Below are positions 10,795-64,000 of a stretch of 64,000 nt of DNA, piece after piece (position 1 is the first letter of the stretch; each line of letters starts with the position of its first letter). Location: NCBI GenBank assembly GCA_963681505.1, contig OY811990.1:2083472-2147471 (forward strand), in the 5' to 3' direction. Both the position numbers and the translations under genes were made by a program. The stretch is from Eunapius fragilis (Eukaryota; Porifera; Demospongiae; Spongillida; Spongillidae). The notes below the pieces were generated by a model, which was given only the letters and a program-made list of their open reading frames with translations, ran no database searches and had not been told where the DNA came from.

Positions 10795-12560
10795 ATTCTT
10801 CACTGGGGATAAATGCCACCTCTGTAATTTCTAAAGCAGATCCAGACATTCTGATGACAATTCCCTGTTCCCACAGGGTAGGTATGTACATGTGAGGATG
10901 GGGAACCCAACGCCATGCATGCATAGTTCCCCAATGCCTGGCCAACTTGTGAGTGACCACCAAATGAAATTATTCACATTTCATCTTAACTGAAGATGGA
11001 TGCCACCTCTGTAAGTTCTAAAGCAGATCCAGACATTCTGATGACAATTCCCTGTTTCCACAGGGTAGGTGTGTACATGTGAGGATGGGGAACACAATGC
11101 CACGCGTAGTTTCCAAATGCCTGGCCAACTTGTGAGGAACCTCAAATGAAATTATTCACACATGTTCACTGAAGATGGATGTCACCTCTGTAAGTTCTAA
11201 AGCAGATCTAGACATTCTGATGACAGCTCCCTGTTCCTACAGGGTAGGTGAGTACATGTGAGTATGGGGAACCCAACGCCATGCATAGTTCCCTAATGCC
11301 GGGGCCAACTTGTTAGGAACCTCAAATGAAATTATTCATACATCAACTTCACTGAAGATGGACGCCACCTCTGTAAGTTCTAAAGTAGATCCAGACATTC
11401 TGATGATAGTTCCCTGTTCTCACAGGGTAGATGTGTACATGTGAGGATGGGGAACCCAACACCATGCGTAGTTCCCAAATGCCTGGCCAACCTGTGAGTG
11501 AACCCCAAATGAAATTATTAACATATCATTTTCACTGAGGATGGACGCCACCTCTGTAATTTCTAAAGCAGATCCATACATTCTGCTCTAATTGTAAAAT
11601 TAATGACAACACTTTAGCAATTGGTCTTAGTAACTCCTCAGATTTCATCTATTAATACCTGCACACCAAACCTTTCAACTAACACATGCTCCACACCAAC
11701 ACAAATCCAGGTTTTTAAAAGCATAAACATGCACTTAAATGTATCATTGTTTTGAATATTCCAAATTATAATACATCGGTCTTGCAGCACCATTCAGATT
11801 ACTTGGTTATCCTTAAAAGCGTTGTCAAGTAGGCCATTGAAAAGATGGTCCCAGGAAACAGACAGCATCCAGGAACTAGCCATGGCATAGTGTTTCCCAT
11901 CCTCACATGTAAACACCTACCCTGTGGGAACAGGGAACTGTCATCAGAATGTGTGGATCTGCTATAAAACTTACAGAGGTGGCATCCATCTTTTGTGAAG
12001 ATGAGATGGGAATAATTTCATTTGGGGGTCACTCACTAGTTGGTCAGGCATTGGGGAACTACGCTTGGCGTTGGGTTCCCCATCCTCACATGTACACACC
12101 TTCCCTGTGGAAACAGGGAATTGTCATCAGAATGTCTGGATCTGCTTTAGAACTTTCAGAGGTGGCATCCATCTTCAGTGAAGGTGATGTGTGAATAATT
12201 TCATTTGAGGTTCCTCACAAGTTGGCTGGTCATTTGAGAACTACGCGTGGCGTTGGGTTCCCCATCCTCACAAGTAAACACCTACCCTTTATGAGTACGG
12301 AACTGTCATCAGAATGTCTGGATCTGCTTTAGAACTTACATAGGTTGCATCCATCTTCAGTGAAGATATGTGAATAATTGTATTGGGTGTCACTCATAAG
12401 TCAGTCAGGCATTGGGGGGAACTACGCGTGGCGTTGGGTTCCCAATCCTCACATGTACACACCTACACTGTGGGAACAGGGAACTGTCATCAGAATGTCT
12501 GGATCTGCTTTCATAGTGGCATCCATCTTTAGTGAAGATGTTATGTGAATAATTTCATTT
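10795..12560. repeat. inverted array of 183-bp units (5 forward, 4 reverse)
   Basis: Five direct units of 179-187 bp run from about 10795 to 11590 (marker GCCACCTCTGTAA at 10815, 11002, 11181, 11364 and 11547). After a unique spacer of about 300 bp, four units in the opposite orientation run from about 11885 to 12560 (marker GGTGGCATCCATC near 11978, 12161, 12343 and 12516). Units carry CCTGTTCCCACAGGGTAGGT and TACATGTGAGGATGGGGAAC. They are similar across both arms. There is no coding potential beyond chance frames. Confidence 0.85.
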
Positions 12561-12674
12561 GGGGATCAGGTGCAACTGGTGACCCAACACACCACCCATG
12601 TATGGTGGCACACAAAGTATACCTCACCTAGATGTGATAAACATGGATTCATGTAGAGAACCACTGATTGCTTG

Positions 12675-18593: not shown

Positions 18594-20847
18594 ATGGCAA
18601 CAAGCAGTGTTTACCTTACCGCATTCCTTGCTATCGCGATTGGAACTCGGCTGAACTGGGCTCTCGAAAAACCAAATACTTTGTATCTGCTCTCGCTACT
18701 CTCCTACGTCGATAATGATACTTCGCCGTTACAGTCCCGCAAAGACGGAGCAGCTATCATCGCTGGTGCCGATCTAGCTATAGCGGAAATTAGCAATCGT
18801 TCAGACCTCCTCGAGAACTATAGGCTGGAACTTATCCCGGCTAATGACGGCTGTATCTTCAGTTGGAAGTCCGTTATCAGCCTGATCGACAACCTCTATT
18901 ATGGCCGTAAACAGATTGTTGGCATAATAGGTCCGGAGTGCTCCGACGCAGCTAAAGCGGTGGCTACTCTCACGGGTAAGCCGGAAATTGCGCTCATAAA
19001 CGTCCATCTTGGCTCAGCACCAGAGCTCGCCGATCGCTCCTTACATCCTTACAGCTTTGGGATCAATCCTTCGACAATCAATCGAATTGATTCGATGCTG
19101 GCTTTGTTTGAGTACAACAACAGGACCCGCGCTGCCGTACTGTACAGCGCGGATATGCTAGTGAATTATAATTCTTTCCTGCTATTCCAAGAGAAGCTGA
19201 ACGGAGCTGTGAACCTGTCCTTTGTCTCTCCCGCGACACCTGATTACATTCCGCTGGAGGCTCTGAGGAATACGCACGTGCGTGTAATTGTGTCCTTCCT
19301 ACGCGATGAGACTCTTCAGATGGCGCTGTGCCTGGCCTATCACATGGGAATGACGTACCCAAAGTACCAATGGATATTATTTGCGTACCCATTAGAACAA
19401 TTTCCCTTTGTATACTATGGAAAATCGTACACTTGCAACAATTCCGCGATTTTAGACTCTTTCAACCATAGCCTATCTTTCAGTACAGATATCTATTCGC
19501 AGCCCATCCCAAAATTCACGCAACTCAGCGACCGCTATGTGAGAGGTATATGTGATAATGATCCCGATTGTCTTGCCCTATTTGATGCTGTCTGGGCATT
19601 TGCAGTGTCCTTAAATAATTCCATTGAACCTTTTCAGAGGAACGGACTACCCCTCTCAAACTACACTTATGGAAACGAGAAATATACTCAAATAATTCGA
19701 CAGCAGATGTACGGGTTAAATTTTACAGGTGTGGCAGGAGGTCTCATAACATTCAATCAGCATGATGGCTATATCTCATCTGCACTTACTAAAGTATTTG
19801 AAATAACGCCTCCTGAGTACATTGTAGCCACATACTCAGGTTCTGATGGCATTAAAGTAAATCAGAGTACTGCTGTCTTTGTGTCAACAAACTTTGAAGA
19901 GGTACATATATTGGTGTCTCCCGCTCTGGCTGCAGTGTTCATTGTGGTGGATGCAATAGCTGCATTTCTGGTGTTAGGGATACATTTTGTGAACACTGCA
20001 TACAGAAATCACAAAGCTATCAAGGCCTCCAGCACAAGACTCAACCATTTTGCTTATGCAGGATGTTATCCTTCTGGCTACACTGATGTATACAATTACA
20101 GAGACCTTCCGTGTAAGTATTCGTGCCAAGTCAGTATTGTGCAATGCCTTTCCATGGGCCTTGTCAATCGGACTTACCCTGGTATTAGGAACAGTAACTG
20201 CAAAGACTTGGAGGTTGTATTACATATTCAAAAACTCCTCAAAGTTAAAGAAAAGCTATCATTTTATGATGAGTGATGCTGTTTTGTCAGTGCTAATTGT
20301 TGTCTTGGTTACTTTGGATATTGGCTTGTGTACAGCCTGGACAATATATGATCCCTACCAACGGAATGTTAAGCAAACACTACTACCTTTTGGAGATACA
20401 TTGATCATCTCCAATGAAGAATTTTGCTCATGCAAGTTTCAAGTTCAATGGATAGCTGCAATTATAGCATTTCAGACAGTGTTCATCGTCTTACTGGTCT
20501 TTTTTGCCTTCTCTACCAGACGTAATAAGAAAATGAAAAAGGAGTTCCAGACCCAGAGTATTATAGTGCTAGCTTATCTGTTGACACTGATCAGCGTAGT
20601 GGGAGGAGTCATCTACTTGATAACAGTGATAGTGGAATCAGGTGTTAATGTTTCTTATGGAATACTGAGCATTCTTCTAACAGTTACAGTATATCTATGT
20701 GCTTTCCTGTTATTCCTACCACCAGTGCTATATTCAATCGACAGTCATCTTAATCCAAACAGTCGGAGACATACTCGGCGACAAACTTTGCGGAGTCTAA
20801 TCAGAACGCTTAGTGGAGGAGACACACTGGAAACCGACGTATTATGA
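18594..20847 (+). CDS. GABA-B-type class C GPCR, single exon, frameshifted
   Basis: A plasma-membrane receptor expected to bind a small ligand outside and signal through G proteins. The start ATG is followed by a signal peptide (residues 1-24). The Venus-flytrap ligand domain spans about residues 28-430 (IIGPECS, many N-glycosylation sequons) and joins directly to TM1 (about 437-465) with no cysteine-rich linker, as in GABA-B receptors. At 20070-20071 one extra C shifts the frame. TM2-TM7 continue in the next frame to a stop at 20847, with LCNAFPW and AKTWR in TM3, FCSCKF in loop 2 and FLPP in TM7. The tail ends TDVL, a possible class III PDZ ligand. No intron is seen. The ligand-contact residues of mammalian GABA-B are not evidently kept, so this is an orphan receptor. 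The indel is either a sequencing error or a new pseudogene. Confidence 0.85.
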
Positions 20848-35965: not shown

Positions 35966-38900
35966 CTAATGCAACCTATCAGGTTGACGTCTGTTTCTCT
36001 CTGGATACCTTCTAGTGGCCAGTTCAATTGTGCCTGGTTGCTCTTGTGGAGGCAGTGGTGGCACTTGTAGAGGAGGTGGTGGAGGCCCTGGTTGCATGGG
36101 TGGTGCCGGTGCCGGTGGATTTGCTACTGGAAGTGGACTCTCAACAACAAAGTGCTCAACAAGTGGAGCTTTCCAGTCCATAGGGTGACGTGGCTGCATA
36201 TGCTGTGCACCACTTTGCACATCTTCTTTCCCTGATGGTTGGATACGAGGTTGTAGACGATTTACATGTACGACTTTAGTCCTTTTACCATCTGTGATCT
36301 CCATAGTAACTGGCGACTTCTTACTTTTCACTTTCCACTTTCCTTCCCATCGTGGGTCTAGCTTTCCTGCTGTTGGAATGGACAGCCACACTAAATCTCC
36401 AACTTTAAAACTTCGTTCTGCTGAATTCTGGTCATAATTTCCTTTTTGGCATTGTGCAGTCTCCACAATATGTGCCTCTACAAGATCCTGGAGTTCAGCT
36501 AGTTTTGCTCGAAGAGTTCCTTGATACTGCAGTGCGTCATAAGCAGTGAATGAAGAAAATGTGCTAGATTTTGGCTGCCGACCATACATTAGGACAAAGG
36601 GTGATGTCCCAGTCGAACTGTGCATAGCTGATCGATAAGCATATAGCACCAAGGGTAAGTTCTTCTCCCAATCATCCTGCCTTTGTGCATAGGTCCTGAG
36701 TAACTGCAGCAATGATCTATTCAGCCGTTCGACCATTCCATCCCCCTCCGGGTGGTAGGCAGATGTGTGACTCTTTTTAATGCCAAATGCTTCTAGGGTT
36801 TGACGAAAAATGGTGCTCTCAAAATTCTGCCCCTGGTCAGAATGAACAATGTCTGGGATTCCATATGTGCAAAACAGCTTAACCATTTCCTTCGAAATCC
36901 TTTCAGCTGTCTGGTCAGGTATGGGGATCGCCTCCGGCCACTTTGTGAAATAATCTTGCACTACAAGCAGGTAGCGGTTGTTTCTGTTAGACAGGGGTAC
37001 TTGTAGAATGTCAATGGCAACCATCTGCCATGGTCTACCTATTGGAACATTCACAAGTGGTGCCCGAGTTGGTTTCGTGAGCTTAGACTTTTGACACACT
37101 TCACATTCCCTGCAATGCTTTTCTACGTCACGAGCCATATTTATCCAGTACGCTTCTTGGCGTACTCGTTCGAGTGTCTTTTGTGCTCCCATGTGACCTG
37201 CCGATGATGCATCATGACAGTCTTTCAATACCTGGTCATGCATAGCCGTAGGCAGCACTGGTACCATGATCATGATAGGTTCACAGGTAGGACCTGGCCT
37301 GTACTTCCTACACAACACATTGTCATGAATGACCAACTGTGACCAAAGTTGTAGATACCTTTTTAACGGTTGCTGTCTCCATTCCTGTTTTGCCTGTGGG
37401 CGTTGTGACATTTCTAGTGCATTTTTCAACTTCTGTATTATTGCATCCTTCTTCTGTGCCTGTCTGACATCCTCAATCGCCATACCTAAATGAAGAGTGG
37501 TGAGAGCTGAGTGAACAGTGAGAGTTGCAGTATCCTTCCTTCGTGACAAAGCATCAGCGTTACCATTTGACAACCCTTTACGGTACACAATGGAGAAGTC
37601 ATATTCCTGAATAGCAAGAGACCATCGACAAAGAAGACCTTCTGATTTCTGTTGGGCCAGCCATTGTAGTGGTGCATGGTCAGTCATTAACTGGAATGGT
37701 CGCCCTAAAAGGTAATGACGGAACTGCTTCATCCCCCACACTATGGCCAGACACTCTCTCTGTATAACACTGTAATTGGACTCTGATCTTGACAGCGTGC
37801 GACTAGCATAGCCAATTACATGCCCTTCTTTCTCTAATACTGCGCCTAGTCCCACACCGCTTGCATCAGTCTGCAAAATCATTGTACCTGCTTGTCTATC
37901 AAACCGAGGAAAAGCCAGAACAGGAGCTTCAGTTAACCGGCATTTTAGTGACTCAAATGCCTTGTTGCAATGATCTGTCCACTTAAACTCAGCATCGTTG
38001 TGTGTTAACTGATGGAGTGGGGCAGCAAGATCAGCAAAACCCTTTATGTATCGACGGTAATAAGAAGCAAGCCCCAGAAACTGTCGTACATCTCCTGCAT
38101 CTACTGGTTTAGGCCACTCTGTTACTGCCCGAATTTTGCTGTCATCAGGAGACATACCTTTTCCTGAAAATACATGCCCTAGGTATGATACTTGTGACAC
38201 CCCAATTTGACATTTTACACCCCGTAGTGTTAATCCAGCTTTTCTTAATCTTCTAAAAGCCTCCTGCAAGTGACCTTTATGCACCTCCTCACTGTCCGAG
38301 TGGATTAAAACGTCATCGATATAAGTTGAGACAAACGGCAGACCTCGCATGATGATATTCATTAGACGTTGAAATGAACTTGGGGCTCCACTTAGACCAA
38401 AGGGCATCCTGGTAAACTGAAACAAACCCATCCCTGGACCTGGGCAGAAAGCAGTTTTCTCCTGATCAGCATCATGTACTGGAACTTGCGAGTAGCCACT
38501 TTGCAGGTCCAACTTGCTAAAAATTACTGAAGCTGAAAGACGATCCTGGACTTCATCCACAAGCGGCAATGGGTAAGCATCTTTGTGAGTTCGTTTATTC
38601 AGTTCCCGATAATCCACGCAGATACGTAATTCCCCTGATTTCTTCCTTGCATAGACAGCTGGTGCCATCCACGAACTACTACTCTCTTCAATTATTCCTT
38701 TCTGGAGCATGTGCTGGATCTGGCTCTCAACTTCTGTTCTGTAGTGCGCTGGTATTCTCCGAGGCGGAACTCGAACTGGTGGTCCATTCGTGGTGATTTT
38801 GTGGCATGTGATATTAGTTGTACCTGGTGTCTTGATGAATAGATCCTTGAACTCATGTACTGTAGAGTTGAAGCAAGGTTTAATGAATTCTGGAAATTCA

Positions 38901-39565
38901 AAATTTGCCCGATCATCAAATATGGGAATGGCACACCCCTCAATGTCTTCCTTATTGTCATCTACCACCGATAGTGCAGCACAGAATTTTATTCTTTTTT
39001 GCTTCTCATCTTCCCAGATGGGTGCCAACTCTAGTGGGATGTAGCAACTCTTTTGCTTGCGGTTCTCATTACTCCTTTTCTTTCCGGCTGGAGTAACAGT
39101 GACTGGAGTGGTTGTGAAATCTAAAATAAGACCTTTATCCTGTAGAAAATCGACTCCTACGATGACAGGAGTGATAAGGTCTTTGACCACAACAAAATGG
39201 TGCTTCATCTCTGCGTTTCCAAGGACCACGGTGGCTTCTACATAGTCCACGATTGGTAGTGCCTCTCCACTGGCTGTCACTAACTTTAGCTTCTGTGGTG
39301 GCTGTTGTCTGGTAATTCCTTTAAGACGGGAAACTAGTTCTTGACGTAAAAGTGAGACCGATGAACCAGAGTCCAGCATTATTTCAGTAGATACCCCAGC
39401 TATTTTACCTTCCATTATCGACCTCTCACTCCTAATTGATGCTACGACAACACAATCCAGTGGGCTTACTGTTGTTTGTTGGGATGACTGTTGCCCCCTG
39501 CAATCATCCCATTGGAGTTTCCCTGATTAAATCTGCTTCTACAGAAACGCTGAATGTGCCCAAAC
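35966..39565 (-). CDS. pol: gypsy Pol polyprotein (protease, RT, RNase H, integrase)
   Basis: The Met-initiated frame is 39415-35966 (1149 codons). It stays open upstream through the end of gag, in the -1 frame relative to gag. Domains in order: aspartic protease with LDSGSS (residues about 14-19); reverse transcriptase with KLDLQSGY (about 298) and YIDDVLIHS (about 361); RNase H with QTDASG (about 516), its Glu in QRECLAIVWG (about 553) and MTDHAPL (about 575); integrase with an HHCC zinc domain (HDASSAGH... CRECEVC, about 743-782), DILQV (about 809), SDQGQNF (about 867) and VERLNRSL (Glu, about 907); and a Pro-rich C-terminus. All catalytic residues are visible. Pol acts in virus-like particles and in the nucleus to copy and insert the element. 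Expression probably needs frameshifting from gag. Confidence 0.95.
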
Positions 39566-40227
39566 TTCCCACATTTGAAACACTGGACCGACCTTGTGTG
39601 CTCATCACTGCGCCTGCTTCCCAGATGTTTCAGTGCTGCTACCTGCTCTGTAAGGGCAAGTACTTGGCCTTGAAGTTCCGTTACCACACGATCACGTTGA
39701 GACTGTGACACACTCGCGACTGGTTGTTCCTCTTCTAAAGACATCAACAATTTAGCACGTTCAAGCGTGGACGCCAATTCTTTAGCATCTCCCGTAGCGC
39801 GAAGTTGTCTGCTAACTGCACTAGGCAAGCCAGCTAGGAATTGGTGCAACAATAGTTGCTCATGAGCACGAGCTTCGAGGTTGGGCATTGCCTGATCCAA
39901 CAGTAGTTTTAGTTCGTGAACGAAAAGAGATAATGCTTCACCGGGAGCCAGCCTTCTTTGGTGGAACTGCTCTAGCGTTGTGAAGGTAGTTGATACCATC
40001 GCGGCAGTGAGCTTTTCCTTAACAGTTCCGTAGTCCTTTCTTTCGTCACCGCTAAGGTCGAGCCACGTGGCGAGAGCTTCTCCTTCTAAAAGAGTCGGCA
40101 ACTTCACAGCCCTCACCTTCTCATCCCAGCCGTTCGCATCGCTACAAATGTCGAAACGCGTAAGCCATTCTTGTACATTTCCCGATGCGAATGGCTTCGG
40201 TAGACTTGTGTGAGTCGAAGACGCCAT
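39466..40227 (-). CDS. gag: gypsy Gag with one CCHC knuckle
   Basis: The frame has 253 codons. Residues 1-165 form a helical retrotransposon Gag domain, with the recognisable stretch GEALATWLDLSGDE near 50. A short coiled coil is at about 183-207. A zinc knuckle CFKCGKFGHIQRFC (CX2CX4HX4C) is at about 217-230, and a short tail follows. It should assemble particles and bind the element RNA. The ATG lies within the primer-binding region, 14 bases from the LTR, so there is almost no untranslated leader. The stop (39466-39468) lies inside the pol frame, which is consistent with -1 frameshifting at 39517-39523. Confidence 0.92.
   Translation of the reverse strand: MASSTHTSLPKPFASGNVQEWLTRFDICSDANGWDEKVRAVKLPTLLEGEALATWLDLSGDERKDYGTVKEKLTAAMVSTTFTTLEQFHQRRLAPGEALSLFVHELKLLLDQAMPNLEARAHEQLLLHQFLAGLPSAVSRQLRATGDAKELASTLERAKLLMSLEEEQPVASVSQSQRDRVVTELQGQVLALTEQVAALKHLGSRRSDEHTRSVQCFKCGKFGHIQRFCRSRFNQGNSNGMIAGGNSHPNKQQ
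39517..39523 (-). promoter_or_regulatory. candidate -1 frameshift slippery site GGGAAAC
   Basis: On the minus strand the gag codons read CAG GGA AAC, giving the heptamer G GGA AAC, which fits X XXY YYZ. After a -1 slip the pol frame is open through the gag stop into the protease. The site is 49 bases before the gag stop. I cannot confirm a downstream pseudoknot by eye. Confidence 0.6.
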
Positions 40228-43912: not shown

Positions 43913-44337
43913 GGGGGGTGTTGCAGTTAACATTAATAGGTGCATAAAGTCTACACACTGTAACATTTAAAAATAACACCACATAATATCAACCGGGCAT
44001 AAATAATATAGGTTCAAGTATTTGGACAAGTTATCGTCTGCATACAGATTGTCGTCATGGGAAAGGAATAGGTTTCACACTGTCATGTCAGTGATAAACG
44101 ACAGCCTGCATACAGTGAGCTATATGCCTAATGTTTCGTTTTTCCATGCAGGTATTTAAAAAAGTAAGGGTTCTTGGGACTTGTGTACCACAGCATCCCA
44201 CTATTAACATCCGCGGTTTTGAAAATTCCTTCCGGTGGAAAAGTGACAAAAGTTTCATAATCCCCTCCGTTTATTTAAAAAGCAAATCGTTAGCGTGGTG
44301 TTTCATACCCTTACGACAGCCGGCTGAAATATAAAGA
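43913..44337 (+). promoter_or_regulatory. 5' flank of microexon gene copy 1
   Basis: From about 44030 this flank is shared with copies 2 and 3 (about 85-90% similar). It contains TTTATTTAAAAAGC at about 44270, 65 bp before the ATG, which could act as a TATA-like element. Conservation across three copies suggests it travels with the gene. Confidence 0.4.
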
Positions 44338-47300
44338 ATGCTGAAGGAACTGTTTCTTCTTGTGACCTTGCTGGCGCTTCTATCTGAGGCCCGTCCCAAG
44401 CACTATGAGGTTTGCGACTGTAAGCGTACGTCATTTAGGTATTCAGCAGATCCATTTAAGATGAGCGAAGAGGTCGATATCGAAGAGCCCCAGAGGGTTG
44501 ATAGCAGCGAATTATTCGATAATAGTGACGACATTGTAGAGAGTAAGATCGGTGCTGTAATGGCGTGTTTAATTTATAGTTGTACCCGTATCTTAAGAAA
44601 TGATGATCAGCTATTTGAGGGCAAAGAATTCTGAAAGTGTGACGTTCCAGGTCAGAATGAATAATCCATTTATAGCATCGCGTAACTTGCATTCTGACAT
44701 ATTGTTCTTATCACCATGAAATTGGTAGTGGAAGGTAAGTCTCTGCAATTACTCTGCATCTTAATGTGCTTGTTGGCTTATTCCTTACGAATTCTGAACA
44801 ATGCAGTGCGTAAGTATCAATGATGCTGCATTTGAGATTGTACATTACGATACCAACTTAACCATGGACAACTCATGACAACTGCAGACTGTAAGATTAA
44901 ATCATGTTATATTTTCCACTGCACCTTAACATATTGTATCTCTACTTATTTCTCGGCTCTCTATCAAAATCACAATGAACAAAGCAGTCTGTAAGTATCA
45001 ATGCTGTTGCATTTCCCATCACACTAATACATGCCTAATTTTTACTCATCATGCACTATATGTACTACTGTGAACAATGCATTAGAATGTAAGTATCAAT
45101 GCAGATGTTGCATTTCTCATTGCATCTTTAACAATAATTTCTTGCCACCATGGATGTGCAATACTGAAGCTGGTAAGTTTCACGGTATAATTCATGTATT
45201 ATATTGTCATAATGCAGCACATAAGTAACATGGATGTTGCATTTACCATTGCATCTTACCATACCTACTTTTTTTGATGTTGCCATGGATATTACTGTGA
45301 ACAATGTAGGATGTAAGTATCAATGATGTTGAATTTCTTATTGCACCTTACCATACTTATTCTCTCTACTAACCTGTGCATTGTGATGTTGCAATTGCCT
45401 TAACATGTATAATTATCCCCGGGCTTTATCACGTACAATGCATGAACGCATGTTTAAAAAATCCAGCTTGTATCAATAATCATGTTGCATTCCACCATAA
45501 AATGCAAGTGCATTCTTAATCATCATGTTAATCAGATAGTATTAATGACATTGCATTTCTCATTGTACCATGCATCACATGGCTACTTACCCCTGGTCAA
45601 CATGGATGCTGTTTTCAACACAGTCGTGCGTAAGTATAAGTGATGTTGTATTTTTAATTGCAAAATAAAATGCAAATTTATTCCCTTCCAATATTATGAC
45701 AATTGATGCAGAATGTAAGTATTAATGATGTTGTGCTTCAATTTGACATTTATCATTCTTGTCACCACGGATTCTATTCCTAACAACGCAGGCTGTGAGT
45801 ATCAATTATGTTGCATTGCCTTATTTAACATGCCTCTCCATTCATTTTCACCATTGATACAAGCCTGTAAGTGTCTATGATGTCACCTATCACATAACAT
45901 ATTGACATGTTCAATTATTCCGGACTTTGTCACCATGGATACTATTATTGCAATCCAGTGTGTAAGTATCAATAATGTAATGAGTGAACCTTTACATTAT
46001 GTACTAAACCCATGTTGCCATGGATACTATCAGCGTTTTGAAAGTATCAATGATGCTGCATTTTCCATTGCATTTTCCATACCTAATTATTCGTGTATGT
46101 CATGGATAAATGCATATATAAATAGTTTTGCATTTCTCATTGCACTTTACCACGCCTACTTATTCTATGTTGCCATGGATACTATCACGAACAGCAGCGT
46201 GTAAGTATCAATGATGTTGCATTTGCCATTGCACCTTACCATGCCTACTTATTCTCTGTTGCCATGGGTATTACTACGAACAATGTAGTATGTAAGTATC
46301 AATGATGTTGCATTTCCCATTGCACATTACCATGCCTACTTATTCTATGTTGCCATGGATACTACTATGAACAATGTAGTATGTAAGTATCAATGATGTT
46401 GCATTTCCCTTTGCACCTTACCATACCTACTTACTCTATGTTGCCATGGATACTACTATGAACAATGTAGTATGTAAGTATCAATGATGGCAAATTTCCC
46501 ATTGCACCTTACCATACCTATTTATTCTCTGTTCCCATGGATTCTAAAATGTACAATGCAGGGTGTAAGTATCAATGATGTAGCATTTCCCATTGCACCT
46601 TACCATACCTACTGATTCTCTGTTGTCATGGATTCTACTATGTACAATGTAAAAGATTGTAAGTATCAATGACTTTGCATTTCCCATTGCACCTTACCAT
46701 ACCTACTTATTCTCTGTTGCCATGGATTCTACTATGAACAATGCAGCCTGTAAGTATCAATGATGTTGCATTTCCCATTGCACCTTACCATACCTACTTA
46801 TTCTCTGTTGCCATGGATTCTACTATGTACAATGTAAAAGATTGTAAGTATCAATGATGTTGCATTTCCCATTGCACCTTACCACACCTACCCATTCTCT
46901 GTTGCCATGGATTGTACAATGAACAATGCAGCCTGTAAGTATCAATGATGTTGCATTTCCCATTGCACCTTACCATATCAACTTTTTCTCTGTTGCCATA
47001 GGTACTACTACGAACAATGCAGCTTGCAATTGTAAGTATCAATGATGTTGCATTTTTAATTGCACCTTATCATACCTACTTATTCTCTGTTGCCATGGAT
47101 ACTGCTATGTACAATGCAGCGTGTAAGTATCAATGATGTTGCATTTCCCATTCTTCATACTTATTCTCTGATGCCATGGATACTACTATGCACAACGCAT
47201 CAATGGTGTTTCATTTCCAAATGTACCTCAACATGTCTACTCATTCTTTGTAATTACAAACAATTCAGTGTGTAAGTGTAAATAACTTTGCATTTCCTAT

Positions 47301-47706
47301 TGTACATCAACTTACCACTTATTCCTTGTCACCATGGATACTATTTTTTTACAATGCAGTGTGTAAGTATCAATGATGTTGCTTTCGCATTCCACTTTAT
47401 TGCACCTATTTATTCCTTATTATTACGGATACCACTGTGTACAATGTACATAGTGCGTAAGTATCGATGTTTGCATTTCTCATTGCACTTCAACATGACT
47501 AACAATTATTTCTTTCCACCATGGATGTGCAATACTGAAGCCGGTAAGTTTCAAAGTATAATTCATATACTACACTGTCATGCTATTCTGTTTTGCTATG
47601 CTCTACACCATTATTTCAACATGACCACCATAGAGATGACTCAGGCTCAGAAAATGGTCAAGAAGCCTTCTGGACATGTAGAATGGTTTTCTGTAGCTGC
47701 TTGTAG
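44338..47706 (+). CDS. secreted-protein gene with array of 3-nt microexons, copy 1
   Basis: Exon 1 (44338-44419) encodes a signal peptide (MLKELFLLVTLLALLSEARP) and a short Cys-containing segment, ending with T before GTAAGC (phase 1). About 30 units of 85-100 bp follow, to about 47545. Most contain CAG or TAG, then NNN, then GTAAGTATC, as if each were a 3-nt exon. Examples are TGC 44807-44809, ACT 44888-44890, TCT 44988-44990, a 6-nt case at 45624-45629 and a 9-nt case at 47023-47031. The last exon (47645-47706) starts with 2 nt completing a codon, also phase 1, and ends FCSCL. The alternative is one uninterrupted 98-codon frame (44338-44634), with the units as an intronic satellite. Some microexons (AAT, GAT) give stops in phase 1. 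Function is unknown. Confidence 0.5.
44735..47645 (+). repeat. about 90-bp tandem array with AG-NNN-GTAAGT in each unit, copy 1
   Basis: The consensus unit runs GTAAGTATCAATGATGTTGC, a pyrimidine-rich middle, GTTGCCATGGATACTACTA and AACAATGCAG. Units 46190-47000 are closely alike. Units 44800-45950 are diverged and yet keep the AG-NNN-GTAAGT core. About four units have lost it (near 45215, 46030, 47195 and 45465). Confidence 0.9.
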
Positions 47707-50551: not shown

Positions 50552-53126
50552 CTACAAGCAGCTACAGAAAACCAACCTGCATGTCCAAAAGGCTCCTAGA
50601 CAGTTTTCTAAGCCTGTAAGAATGACGTGGTTTAATTCATGAGAAAACACATTATTCAAACATATGATGGTCATGTTTAAATAATTAATGGTGATGAGCA
50701 TAGCAAAACAGAATAGCATGACAATATAATGACAATATAATACCTTGAAACTTACCAGCTTCAGTATTGCACATCCATGGTGGCATGAAATTATTGTTAG
50801 TTATGTTGAAGTGCAGAGAAATGCAATCATTGATACTTATGCAGTACATTTTACACAGTGGTATCCATAATAATAAGGAATAAGCAGGTATGATAAAGTG
50901 GAATGCGAGAGCAACATCATTGATACTTACACACTGCATTGTACAAAATAGTATCCATGGTGACAATCAATAAGTGGTAAGTTACCGTACAATGAGATAT
51001 GCGAAGTTATTTACACTTACACACTGAAATGTCCATAAAGTGTACAAAGTGAGTAGACACGTTAAGGGAATGAAACATCATTGACACGTACATACTACAG
51101 TGTTCGCACTAGTATCCATGGCAACATCAAAATAAGTAGATATGGTAAGGTGCAAAGGGAAATGTAACATCATTGATACTTACAAGCTGCATAGTTCATA
51201 GTAGTATCCATGGAAACATCAAAGAAGTACGTATGGTAAGGTGCAAAAGGAAATGCAACATTATTAATACTTACACCCTGCATTGTTCATAGTAGTATCC
51301 ATGGCAGCAGAGAGTATGTAGATATGGTATGGTGCAATGGGAAATGGAGCATCAATAATACATACTATCTGCATTGTTCATAGTAGTATCCATGGCAACA
51401 GAGAATAAGTAGGTATGGTAAGGTGCAATGGGAAATGCAGCATCAATGATACTGTCTGCATTGTTCATTGTAGTATCCATGGCAACAGAGAATAAGTAGG
51501 TATGGTAAGGTGAAATGGGAAATGCAAAACAATTTATATATACAATCTGCATAAATCCATAACAATGATTAAGTAGGTATGGAGGTGCAATGGAAAATGC
51601 AACATCATAGATACTTTCAAAACGCCGACAGTATCCATGGCAACATGGGTTAAAGTAGGTGTGTGGTAAAGGTTCACTCAGTACATTATTGATACTTACA
51701 CACTGGATTGCGATAGAATCCATGGTGACAAAGGCCGGAATAATTGAACATGTCAATGTGCTATGTGAAAAGTGCCATCATAGACACTTACTGGCTGGTG
51801 TGAATGGTTAAAATGAATGGTGAGGCATGTTAAGTAAGGAAATGCAACATAACTGATACTTACAGCCTGCGTTGTTAGGAATAGAATCCGTGGTGACAAG
51901 AATGACAAATGTCAAATTGAAGCACAACGTCATTGATACTTACTTTCTGCATCATTTGTAATAGTATTGGCAAGGAACACATTTTCAAGTTATTGTACAA
52001 TTTAAAATGAAATATCACTTACGCATCCATGTTGACCACGGTAAGTAGCCATGTGATGCATTGGCACAACGAGAAATGCAATGTCATTAAACTTTCTGAT
52101 TAAAAGCATAATGAATAAGAATGCATTTGCATATTATGGTGGAATGCAACATGATTATTGATACAAGCTGGATTTTTTAAACATGTGTTCATGCATGGTG
52201 GTAAAGCCGGGATAATTAAACATGTTAAGGCAACATCACAATGCTCAAGTAGAGACATGCATGTTAAGTTGCAATGGGAAATGCAACATCTTGGATACTT
52301 ACATTCTAATGTTCATAATGATAACCAAGAAGGACAAGGAATACGTAGGCATATTATGGTGCAATGAGAAATGCAACATTGATAATACTTGCAAGCGTCT
52401 TCATTGTTCATAGTAGAACATAAGGGGCATGATGAGTAAAATTAGGCATGTTTTCGTGTGAAGGGAAATGCAACACCATTGATACTTACAGCCTGCATTG
52501 ATCATTGTGATTTTGATGGAGAGCCGAGAAATACGTAGAGGTACAGTATGCTAAGGTGCAGTGGAAAATGTAACATGATTTAATCTTACAGTCTGCAGTT
52601 GTCATGAGTTGTCCATGGATAAGTTGGTATCGTAATGTACAATCTCAAATGCAGCATCATTGATACTTACGCACTGCATTGTTCAGAATCGGCAAAGAAT
52701 AAGCCAACAAGCACAGCAAGATGCAGTGTAATTGCAGAGACTTACCTCCAATTTCTGGATGATAAGAGCAATATGTCAGAATGCAAGTTGTTACGCGATG
52801 CTATAAATGGATTATTCGAATATTCTGAACTGGACCTGGAACGTCACACTTTCAGAATTCAACGTTTCTTCAGATACGGGTAGAACTACAAATTAATACA
52901 CGCCTTTACAGCAATGTTCTTACTCTCTAGAATGTTGTCACAATTATCGAATAATTCACTGCTATCAACCCTCAGACCCCTTCGATATCGACCTCTTCGC
53001 TCATCTTCAGTGGATCTTCTGAATACCAAATGACGTACGCTTACAGTCGCAAACCTCATAGCGCTCAGGACGGGCGTCAGGTTGAAGCGCCAGGAAGGTC
53101 ACAAGAAGAAACAGTTCCTTCAGCAT
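50552..53126 (-). CDS. secreted-protein gene with microexon array, copy 2
   Basis: The minus-strand paralogue of copy 1. Exon 1 starts at the ATG at 53126 (signal peptide MLKELFLLVTFLALQPDARP) and ends GACT before GTAAGC. Downstream of that point the frame is not kept, which supports a real donor there. A 9-nt candidate exon at 52746-52754 has CAG before and GTAAGT after. About 20 array units follow with 3-nt candidates (TGC, ACT, GCT, AAT and others), plus one 6-nt case near 52390. The last exon is 50552-50613, the same 62-nt length, phase and stop as copy 1, preceded by TTCTTACAG. Between copies 1 and 2 the last exon has four silent changes and no indel. The product is presumed secreted; its function is unknown. 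Confidence 0.5.
50740..52755 (-). repeat. about 90-bp microexon-like array, copy 2
   Basis: Reads on the plus strand as repeated GATACTTACANNCTGCATTG. Units are more diverged and more unequal in length than in copy 1, but AG-NNN-GTAAGT is retained in most. Confidence 0.85.
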
Positions 53127-61120: not shown

Positions 61121-63733
61121 GCAGAGTAGGAGAATTAGCAGCACCGGTTCGCCAGAAACGCAGCAGACGACTAAGATCTATGACGGCACTATAGAGCAGA
61201 TGGCAGCACCATAGATACTAGCTATGGCAGCTCTAATGTCCAGTTTGGAGAGCCATTGTGATCATCTACAAAATGGCATACATAGTGTCTCGACTGACGA
61301 AAACTTCACAATCTAGGAGACCAAGAGAGTCTTGTCAAATAGAACACTGCGGTCGACATATGTGGTACTCCAAATTAGATGGCATTCTGAGTGGTGTTGG
61401 GTGTTAATCCACCCTTTACTTAGAAGTAGAGTTAACAATATTCAACCTGATCATTACGTCATTGAGAATCAACTGGTCCAAGAAATTAAACTGCCCAAAG
61501 TTTAGGCAGTGTTGCGTTGGACAGGTGCATGTTACAGTCAGTAAAAACTGCTTTTAGGGGTTCTAAAAACTAAAAATCTGCGGTTACAACTTCGTGCAAC
61601 TTCTACAATCCGCGGTTACTACTTCGTACAAAACATCAAGAGACTCTATTTTAATGCAGATCTCGGGTTACATCAATTCCCATGGCAACAACATCTGTCC
61701 TGCCGCCATCGAAACTCGGCTTCTCCAAATATTCTGAAGAGCACTACCACGGGGAGGCAATGTAGGCAGCACATGAATGATGGGACAAGGAGAGAAGCAT
61801 CAAGCCCACTTTCCCACATACTAGTTAAGCACATTCATAAATAAATGTGCACAAAGATCTAGTCCAGTCATACATGCCGTCCATGGAGCTGAGTTAAGAA
61901 CGCGAATTTTTATAGTACTGTGGGAAACTGATACAGATACATGTACATTCGGATAGCTTCATTAAGAAAAGCATTCTTAAATTTGCGCAATCTAATCGAG
62001 AAGTTGCGATCTAATCGAGGTGTTGAGTCTATTTATCACCAGCAGCAGTAACACTACATGCACAGAGCTGACAGCTGGAGCCCATTCCGTCCAGCATCGT
62101 CGGTTATAATTAATACCGTAAATGGCTACGCCCAGCGGTACAGATATGGGTGCGGCTTTGCAGTTATTATTGAAGCCCGATATCCATTCCGGTCTAATCT
62201 TGTTTCCATTCCAAATTTGCAATACTTCACTATTTGGTTTTCTCTACATTTGCATGCAGGGACTAACAAATGAACTATATCATTGCAGCACTCAGTTTCG
62301 TTGAATTTCTCGACTCACTCGTTAATGTCTATTGTCTTGAATGTTCACCCGGGGGTACGATTGCACACCCGAGAGTGCACAGCTAAAAGGGCTAAGGTCA
62401 CTCGTTAATGAAAGCGTCGACATTTGAACGGAAAAAATCGGGCAGAATTGGTGCTCCCAATGAAATGGAGAATAAATGGAAGCAAATTGATGCGGATAAA
62501 ATAACGAAATGGCGGAAACGCACACAGACCCTTGTGGCCTTCACGGTCTGCATACAGATTGTCATCAGGGGAAAGGAATAGGTTTCACACTGTCATGTCA
62601 GTGATAAACGACAGCCTGCATACAGTGAGGTGCATGCCTAAAGTTTCGTTTTTCCAGGAATTAATAAAGTAAGGATTCTTGTGACTTGTAAATTCCGCGG
62701 TTTTGAAAAATGACAAAAGTATTCATAATCCCCGCCGTTTATTTTAAAAGCAAATCGTTAGCGTGGTATTTCATACCCTTGCGACAGCCGGCTGAAATAC
62801 AAAGAATGCTGAAGGAACTGTTTCTTCTTGTGACCTTCCTGGCGCTTCAACCTGACGCCCGTCCTAAGCACTATGAGGTTTGCGACTGTAAGCGTACGTC
62901 ATTTGGTATTCAGAAGATCCACTGAAGATGAGCGAAGAGGTCGATATCGAAGGGGTCTGAGGGTTCATAACAGTGAATTATTCGATAATTGTGACAACAT
63001 TCTAGAGAGTAAGAACATTGCTGTAAAGGCGTGTATTAATTTGTAGTTCTACCCGTATCTGAAGAAACGTTGAATTCTGAAAGTGTGACGTTCCAGGTCC
63101 AGTTCAGAATATTCGAATAATCCATTTATAGCATCGCGTAACAACTTGCATTCTGACATATTGCTCTTATCATCCAGAAATTGGAGGTAAGTCTCTGCAA
63201 TTACACTGCATCTTGCTGTGCTTGTTGGCTTATTCTTTGCCGATTCTGAACAATGCAGTGCGTAAGTATCAATGATGCTGCATTTGAGATTGTACATTAC
63301 AATACCAACTTATCCATGGACAACTCATGACAACTGCAGACTGTAAGATTAAATCATGTTACATTTTCCACTGCACCTTAGCATACTGTACCTCTACGTA
63401 TTTCTCGGCTCTCCATCAAAATCACAATGATCAATGCAGGCTGTAAGTATCAATGGTGTTGCATTTCCCTTCACACGAAAACATGCCTAATTTTACTCAT
63501 CATGCCCCTTATGTTCTACTATGAACAATGAAGACGCTTGTAAGTATCATCAATGTTGCATTTCTCATTGCACCATAATATGCCTACGTATTCCTTGTCC
63601 TTCTTGGTTATCATTATGAACATTAGAATGTAAGTATCCAAGATGTTGCATTTCCCATTGCACCTTAACATGCATGTCTCTACTTGTGCATTGTGATGTT
63701 GCCTTCACATGTTTAATTATCCCGGCTTTAGGC
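61121..63733. repeat. right arm of 2.6-kb inverted duplication
   Basis: The inverted partner of 52203-54823, separated by about 6.3 kb. Differences are scattered single bases, and neither arm shows a long insertion. Confidence 0.9.
62806..63733 (+). pseudogene. microexon gene copy 3, truncated by the duplication end
   Basis: Exon 1 begins at the ATG at 62806 (same signal peptide as copy 2) and ends GACT/GTAAGC. Candidate microexons follow in the same order as in copy 2: a 9-nt one at 63178-63186, TGC 63259-63261, ACT 63340-63342, GCT 63440-63442, a 6-nt one at 63534-63539 and AAT 63627-63629. The arm then ends at about 63733 and no further units or last exon are present, so this copy cannot make the full product. 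Confidence 0.55.
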
Positions 63734-64000
63734 CATTCCAAATGTGAAAATAGTTTCCCGTCCGGACCTTTTACCAAAACCCATGCGGGCGGGCGGCTAT
63801 TATCCATTATTTACATATAATTATTAAAAATGAATACATTAAATATTCTATATCTCACATTATCAGGCATGAATACAAAAGGTGGCAGAACGGAAAATTA
63901 TGGCGCTGTATGTCCGGACCGGTAACGATTGATGACTGAGACGCTTAGGCAAGAAGAAACACGCAAAGCCTTTTCTTAAATTGCTATTATTAAATGGCGG
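63734..64000. other. no gene seen
   Basis: Unique sequence beyond the duplication arm, with two GTCCGGACC-like words (63750 and 63913). Nothing recognisable. Confidence 0.4.

Follow-up and report, generated by a model that had tools for sequence, protein, structure and literature searches.

A predicted sponge gene family in which a secreted cysteine-rich peptide would be spliced codon by codon from arrays of three-nucleotide exons

How can a secreted peptide be encoded when nearly all of its candidate exons are only three nucleotides (nt) long? This question is raised by a locus of the sponge Eunapius fragilis, contained in a window of 64,000 nt (C20:2083472-2147471; window positions are used unless a contig is named) within the 24-contig, 218.9-Mb genome that was searched. 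The window carries three copies of one gene family: gene A at 44338 on the plus strand, gene B at 53126 on the minus strand and the start of gene C at 62806 on the plus strand. In gene A, a signal-peptide exon is followed by a tandem array of candidate microexons. The original prediction had described such an array in a gene laid out like the micro-exon genes of schistosomes, and this description is supported: 28 cores, each made of an AG, mostly 3 nt and a mostly GTAAGT-like donor, succeed one another between 44729 and 47543 (plus strand) with a period of mostly ~91 nt. The 3-nt core and the single 9-nt exon stand as described, while exons of 6 nt occur twice and not once. We consider it very probable, from sequence comparisons, that these are signal-peptide and propeptide genes whose mature peptide, of ~30 residues and cysteine (Cys)-rich, would be spliced codon by codon, usually from all units.

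Regarding the arrays, they are far beyond chance and their 3-nt spacing is a constraint. Acceptor and donor matrices, trained on 451 seed units (3-nt spacing, GTAAGT) from 31 merged regions, were scanned separately on both strands of these same regions without using the spacing, and yielded 450 acceptor-donor pairs: 429 at 3 nt, 12 at 6, 4 at 9, 1 at 12, 3 at 4 and 1 at 13. Read post hoc, an AG one base downstream gives 3 nt in the three 4-nt pairs, and an internal acceptor gives 6 nt in the 13-nt pair. Genome-wide, the exact core ACAATGCAG-N(0-20)-GTAAGTATCAATG has 294 matches, with N=3 in 288 of them and none for the reversed control. A chaining model devoid of any modulo-3 rule produced 25 chains and 535 exons, of which 522 are multiples of 3 (495 of 3 nt), the 13 others all lying at the first position of a chain or at its last one or two; it supersedes an earlier chaining with a too strict donor model (342 exons, 341 multiples of 3, the remaining one being an 8-nt stop exon). 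A curated set of 19 genes, for which multiples of 3 were imposed, comprises 550 exons (525 of 3 nt, 17 of 6, 5 of 9, 2 of 12 and 1 of 18). Its introns measure 61-105 nt in 499 of 531 cases, with a median of 86 and all three lengths modulo 3 present.

The reading frame of the arrays was examined across the family. As counted by hand, the upstream exons end in phase 0 in C1 (124 + 23 nt), C19 (184 + 23 nt), C6, C7, C22 (3876731, at the end of exon 2) and gene A; in C6, C7 and gene A, it is a third exon, reading E/K/N-M-I/M-I-S-Y-L/M..Q, that ends in this phase. Because the upstream exons end in phase 0, each predicted 3-nt microexon is one whole codon. The original prediction had placed the end of exon 1 at 44419 in phase 1 and the start of the last exon in phase 1 as well, neither of which finds support in the family. 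Indeed, the codons it had read are those of frame 2 of the joined arrays of the 19 curated genes, which contains 66 stops and 25 Cys in 569 codons, while frame 0 has 0 stops and 97 Cys in 588 codons and frame 1 has 9 stops and 4 Cys (569 codons). The phase 1 reading was thus rejected on its 66 stops, and the few units that had seemed to add a stop vanish in phase 0. With positions shuffled among the 525 single-codon exons, 13.7 stops arise on average (minimum 3 in 5000), and the triplets obtained before curation contain 0 stops in 429 against 10.1 expected from positional composition; as paralogs are not independent, these statistics serve as guides rather than as exact probabilities. The core ATGCAG-TRR-GTAAGTATC has 5 matches in the whole genome, with TGG in four of them and TGA in one.

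Paralogs diverge 2-4 times more at codon positions 1 and 2 than in their introns; third codon positions stay close to the intron rate. With units aligned that have similar flanks and sites taken as independent, positions 1 and 2 differ by 20.8% versus 5.1% for introns between gene A and a near copy (p 2e-4, 24 exons), by 57.5% versus 23.2% among four C20 genes (p 5e-6, 20/21 exons used) and by 27.5% versus 11.8% among four C22 genes (p 0.007, 20/21 exons used), the first two sets overlapping in genes. In the same three sets, the columns bearing Cys are all Cys (5/5, 4/4 and 3/3). Four fresh regions (C12, C3 and two in C21), whose arrays had no part in training the matrices, were submitted to the rule-free chain, which gave 65 exons: 63 measure 3 nt and include no stop, and the other two, a 9-nt AAATGAGAG and a 7-nt AAATAAG at array ends, both read Lys-stop. 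Two of these four regions overlap earlier-used loci on the exon-1 side, and some of their core triplets were already present in the genome-wide core listings.

When the units are joined in order, the arrays predict short Cys-rich peptides: WKCTSNLDLSCNAPCRYYYGIPIPLAIRCCCP then AGA TGA for gene A, CSWEQPKLCRHPCRIVPTAIVPLPYPPVKLCCC for C22, SDIIIRCHTRPACPLSGNCRSGVKIGGQTYCCC for C7 and CPRKYPHPFEFNREECYYNYCSWHPYLTDDGLCCC for C1. A framework C-Xn-C-X3-5-C-Xn-CCC, often with a stop soon after, is common to 11 aligned predicted peptides of the 19; four of its six Cys columns are invariant there and the two others reach at least 90%. The alignment was typed by hand, with residues at the ends added or left off and with one unit read visually after the chain had missed or misread it (an extra Asp in C1, GGK in C22 4284141). 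The eight other peptides are partial, B-type, near-identical or of another framework (C6, C11, C1 23603166). The C-terminal Cys run is itself variable, with CC alone in C19 and four Cys in C13. The terminal exon carries an in-frame stop in four C20 genes and in C11 (TGATGACT in three genes, AGATGACT and AAATAAG) and, as judged by eye, in gene A, C1 and C22 4284141. As this Cys framework is common to diverged genes and is followed soon by stops in many of them, it suggests that the units are included in order to make a defined peptide. Regarding known families, three predicted precursors matched no Pfam family up to an E value of 1, and one predicted peptide had no match in the PDB.

We propose that a family member would consist of a signal-peptide exon, one or two short exons, the last of which ends in phase 0, and then 14-52 mostly single-codon exons separated by introns of mostly 61-105 nt. 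A 3-nt exon can hardly hold factors on both sides at once; the introns around it would hence be excised in succession through intron definition, relying on a long intronic donor and a CAG acceptor, while the exon itself would carry little or no splicing signal. In the curated set, the donor is GTAAGT in 464 of 550 exons and GTAAGTAT in 385 of 550, and the acceptor is CAG in 451 of 550, all three being favoured by the model; GTAAGTAT is complementary to eight bases at the 5' end of U1. All units would usually be included, in order, to give a secreted peptide of ~30 residues held by about three disulfides. With an in-frame stop in 297 of 531 introns and many intron lengths that are not multiples of 3, retaining an intron would often break this product. 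Since every unit is a codon with its own splice sites, the gain, loss or shuffling of units would alter the peptide by whole codons and keep the frame, which would let the loops between Cys diversify fast. In gene A, the tandem units are alike over 46128-47199; the units around the Cys codons are more diverged, and near-identical units make up the loop from the third Cys to CCC, so that this loop appears to have grown recently. From the precursor layout and the Cys framework, one may guess at a defence or toxin-like role.

Several points weigh against this proposal. Six of the 294 exact core matches have a spacer other than 3 nt, including one of 4 nt among 100 listed matches, the other 99 being of 3 nt. 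The matrices were trained on 3-nt seeds, and the curated set, which favours GTAAGT in addition to imposing multiples of 3, holds doubtful weak units such as the one at 45467. The lone TGA core (C1:24190380) belongs to a degenerate array outside the gene models and, by eye, the 3' exon of genes A and B is open for 20 codons also in the phase of the original prediction. A pair of B-type copies shows no excess of change, its 13 exons being free of differences and its introns differing by 2.7%, the AG/GT invariance being by construction in this comparison. Misaligned tandem units could inflate the paralog comparisons, the C20 value notably, C22 arrays being less homogeneous, and the assumption of independent sites bears on all of these tests. 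The C12 and C3 chains, two of the four fresh regions, have no terminal exon; 8-nt terminal exons without stop are found in three C22 genes (CCAACAAG twice, CCAGCAAG) and in C7 (GCCTCACT); and C6, C11 and C1:23603166 have other Cys patterns. Finally, the C7 and C1 peptides were searched in the genome for retrocopies of a spliced message: C7 exon 3 alone matched and nothing was found for C1, an empty result that is uninformative by itself.

Among other explanations, we tentatively retain that the one-codon exons could act as interchangeable codon cassettes, with loops evolving by gain, loss and shuffling of units and with optional splicing of weak units adding a peptide library from each of some 40 loci; this is a possibility we would not favour. 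Combinatorial splicing, in which the units are optional cassettes read in phase 0 and transcripts with different subsets make many peptides per locus, is unlikely. In its favour, nearly all units are symmetric, which lets every subset stay in frame, the donor or acceptor of some units is weak, and schistosome micro-exon genes do proceed in this manner, as far as the available part of the source describes (PMC4350168). However, random skipping would destroy the Cys framework and CCC end of diverged genes as well as the invariant Cys codons of close paralogs, and most curated donors are alike, GTAAGT being, as said, both predominant and favoured by the model. The original prediction had let each splice choice add or drop one codon; as the main function this is not supported, since the shared Cys framework and the stops that follow it in many genes suggest ordered inclusion. 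Optional skipping of some weak units is possible.

A rival in which the 98-codon open frame at 44338-44634 gives the functional product, leaving the array as an unused downstream relic, is very improbable. This frame is open in gene A, and several database open reading frames (ORFs) run through the first donor, but it is broken in genes B, C and many family members, gene models of Ephydatia muelleri join signal peptide, propeptide and exon 3, and the array is under codon-level constraint. Least probable of all, a non-coding intronic minisatellite whose 91-nt unit spread by tandem duplication, its AG-3nt-GTAAGT core being inherited without being selected or spliced in, would explain the tandem arrangement, the alike units of gene A and the much intron sequence common to units, yet it is opposed by the variable intron lengths next to a spacing of almost always 3, 6 or 9, by the absence of stops in one frame only, by the excess divergence at positions 1 and 2 and not at position 3, by the Cys framework and by the in-frame stops at array ends. 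Other candidates were rejected: there was no Rfam match at gathering scores and no tRNA, hence no RNA gene or tRNA array, and introns gave no sign of a conserved secondary structure (mean z -0.06, 132 introns). No relatives were found in phage records.

The features of the family in the window are collected in the table. Two structures can be drawn for exon 1 of gene A, with a donor GTTTGC at 44410 or with none and read-through to 44542. The segment equivalent to 44410..44460 contains stops in many family members and is absent from the E. muelleri models P0013, P0014 and P0018. Exon 3 of gene A resembles EMIISYMRAKGLKTQ in C6 and NMMISYLGAKRAESLNVSPQ in C7, and the E. muelleri model P0013 has DEMMITYLGAKSAEDVKPQ. 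The 3' exon from 47645 is probably a 3' untranslated region (UTR). Just 5' of the ATG, the sequence at 44300-44337 (CTTACGACAGCCGGCTGA..) seems common to the database ORFs P0002, P0005, P0008 and P0025, which read ..PLRQPAE/TE..MLKEL; perhaps it is a 5' UTR or a promoter element.

Table 1. Predicted features of the peptide-gene family in the window
Feature	Position	Strand	Remarks
Gene A exon 1, signal peptide MLKELFLLVTLLALLSEARPKHYE	44338..44409	+	ATG at 44338
Gene A possible 51-nt first intron, GTTTGC...TTTAAG	44410..44460	+	open in frame in gene A
Gene A exon 2, acidic propeptide MSEEVDIEEPQRVDSSELFDNSDDIVE..	44461..44542	+	ends in phase 1, GTAAGA next; resembles MSDEVEE / MSKEVDI exons of other genes
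Gene A exon 3, KMMISYLRAKNSESVTFQ, 53 nt	44598..44650	+	ends in phase 0, GTCAGA next
Gene A array, 28 microexons, phase 0, encodes WKCTSNLDLSCNAPCRYYYGIPIPLAIRCCCP	44729..47543	+	25 of 3 nt, two of 6 nt, one of 9 nt
Gene A microexon starts 1-10	44729, 44807, 44888, 44988, 45086, 45170, 45310, 45467 (weak), 45624, 45712	+	
Gene A microexon starts 11-20	45792, 45864, 45959, 46198, 46289, 46380, 46471, 46562, 46656, 46747	+	
Gene A microexon starts 21-28	46841, 46932, 47023, 47120, 47269, 47360, 47454, 47541	+	
Gene A terminal exon(s)	47634..47706	+	AGA TGA stop at 47634, matches 8-nt stop exon of C20 relatives
Gene B, inverted paralog	50552..53126	-	signal-peptide exon at 53126, microexons 52754-50756, 3' exon from 50613
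Gene C, B-type copy	62806..64000	+	extends past the window end; array to about C20:2149644

Gene B is partly degenerate, its second-Cys unit and the unit for the last Cys of CCC being now without splice sites. Beyond the window, the repeat unit has at least 538 genome matches. An exon-1 probe matched 40 places on ten contigs, a minimum since a C12 gene parsed later lies outside them, with some copies partial or degenerate; in the most distant copies (C11 and most of C21), it matches only at positions 96-178, the start of the coding exon. The exact 15-mer ATGCTGAAGGAACTG, the first 15 bases of exon 1, occurs in 34 copies genome-wide, all inside the 40 probe matches, and in none for the reversed control. 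The 30 exon-1 loci that were translated give MLKELxLLVTLLALFADARP-like signal peptides, with a MLKELALLVTLLALFADARP-like hydrophobic N-terminus as judged by eye. C11 has a 52-codon array with repeated peptide blocks, and its introns are most alike at a shift of 25 units (mean 0.892, among the shifts printed), a periodicity that would fit, as expected, a duplication of multi-unit blocks.

Further members were noticed in passing. Downstream of the C1 gene, at a distance of at least ~2 kb, a degenerate second array (C1:24190380-24190784, minus strand) has ATAAGT at some of its donors. In C12, a mirror-image pair of arrays (3126346-3127794, minus strand, and 3138453-3139901, plus strand) has the same series of 12 listed codons and is probably a recent inverted duplication. 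In two C21 members (L078 with L055, and L079), the propeptide exon is separated from the array by ~1.4-1.7 kb in which no unit was parsed, and the Cys patterns are shorter, e.g., CDPGCPGCICSWRGK.

The named homologs of the family are gene models of E. muelleri. These models, themselves predictions, join signal peptide, propeptide and exon 3 as we predict and skip the GTTTGC..CAG segment; P0014 has 86% identity, across the first junction, to the predicted splice of a C21 gene. By eye, P0013, P0024 and P0027 seem to continue past exon 3 into the intron that follows it, or into introns of the array. A putative microexon array in this species rests mainly on a V-S-I-N/H-D-V stretch read by eye in P0024 and P0027, and P0027 has weak similarity only (E 0.002) to the read-through translation of the array. 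The read-through ORF of the array, used as query, gave four protein matches, none of them named.

Other elements of the window were also noted. Between 15036 and 18214, ~1060 copies of CAT with 99% matches form more than 3 kb of one trinucleotide repeat. A class C G-protein-coupled receptor (ANF_receptor, 7tm_3) lies at 18594-20847 in two overlapping ORFs of different frame; its best named relatives are E. muelleri proteins at about 60% identity, other relatives reaching 92%. A long terminal repeat-type retroelement at 35966-40227 (minus strand) has one ORF with protease, reverse transcriptase, RNase H and integrase domains and, by eye, a gag-like ORF. A ~183-bp tandem repeat and, by eye, its apparent inverted counterpart (10797-11585 and 11892-12568) are about 300 bp apart.

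How does this family compare with known systems? Isolated tiny microexons are known, such as the 3-nt exon of RPS24 or the 1-bp exon of the placozoan mitochondrial cox1, so that exons of 1-3 nt do exist; there are one or few per gene, and the cox1 case is mitochondrial, whereas ~30 consecutive ones would encode the whole sponge peptide. Conotoxin-like and sponge Cys-rich precursors have a conserved signal peptide, a propeptide and a variable mature peptide with a Cys framework, a layout that the predicted family shares; unlike these known families, its peptides lack a Pfam match (three precursors) or a PDB match (one peptide). To our knowledge, no such precursor is encoded codon by codon. Sponges make knottins, according to the available part of one report (PMC13418204). 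Relationships to knottins and to micro-exon genes were judged by Pfam, PDB and descriptions.

Schistosome micro-exon genes, as the accessible portions of the sources describe them, have a signal peptide, a coding region of mostly tiny symmetric exons and secreted fast-evolving products, with exons of mostly 15 bp (6-81 bp in the text, 3-81 bp in the abstract) and introns of 0.1-5 kb (PMC10526429, PMC4350168). The sponge family likewise has a signal peptide and a coding region mostly in tiny symmetric exons (522 of 535 multiples of 3); its exons are smaller (525 of 550 of 3 nt), its introns mostly confined to 61-105 nt (499 of 531), its units are tandem copies of one repeat and its product is Cys-rich with a CCC end, features that differ from what these portions report. 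In aphids, bicycle genes encode putative secreted effectors under strong positive selection with many small one-phase internal exons, almost all of phase 2 and ~17 exons per gene on average, again from a partial view of the source (PMC9168663). Within the same limits, the sponge family resembles them by its tiny one-phase exons, its predicted secreted, fast-evolving product and the elevated change at positions 1 and 2 in three paralog sets, though not in the B-type pair, a comparison made against the intron rate; its exons differ in being of phase 0 and, mostly, one codon long. In the literature, neither arrays of one-codon exons nor this sponge family came up by title and abstract, among the matches listed and in a coverage that leaves subscription papers and bioRxiv preprints mostly outside.

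If transcribed as predicted, these genes would approach the finest possible subdivision of a coding sequence, with ~30 successive exons of one amino acid each. They would thus test how the spliceosome handles exons too short for splice factors on both sides at once, and would suggest that splicing information can sit almost wholly in introns. They would also provide a model of evolvability in which peptide length changes codon by codon without frameshift. Such an architecture may explain why annotation misses these genes, as P0013, P0024 and P0027, which seem to run into introns, illustrate. Finally, it opens a predicted family of uncharacterised secreted Cys-rich sponge peptides.

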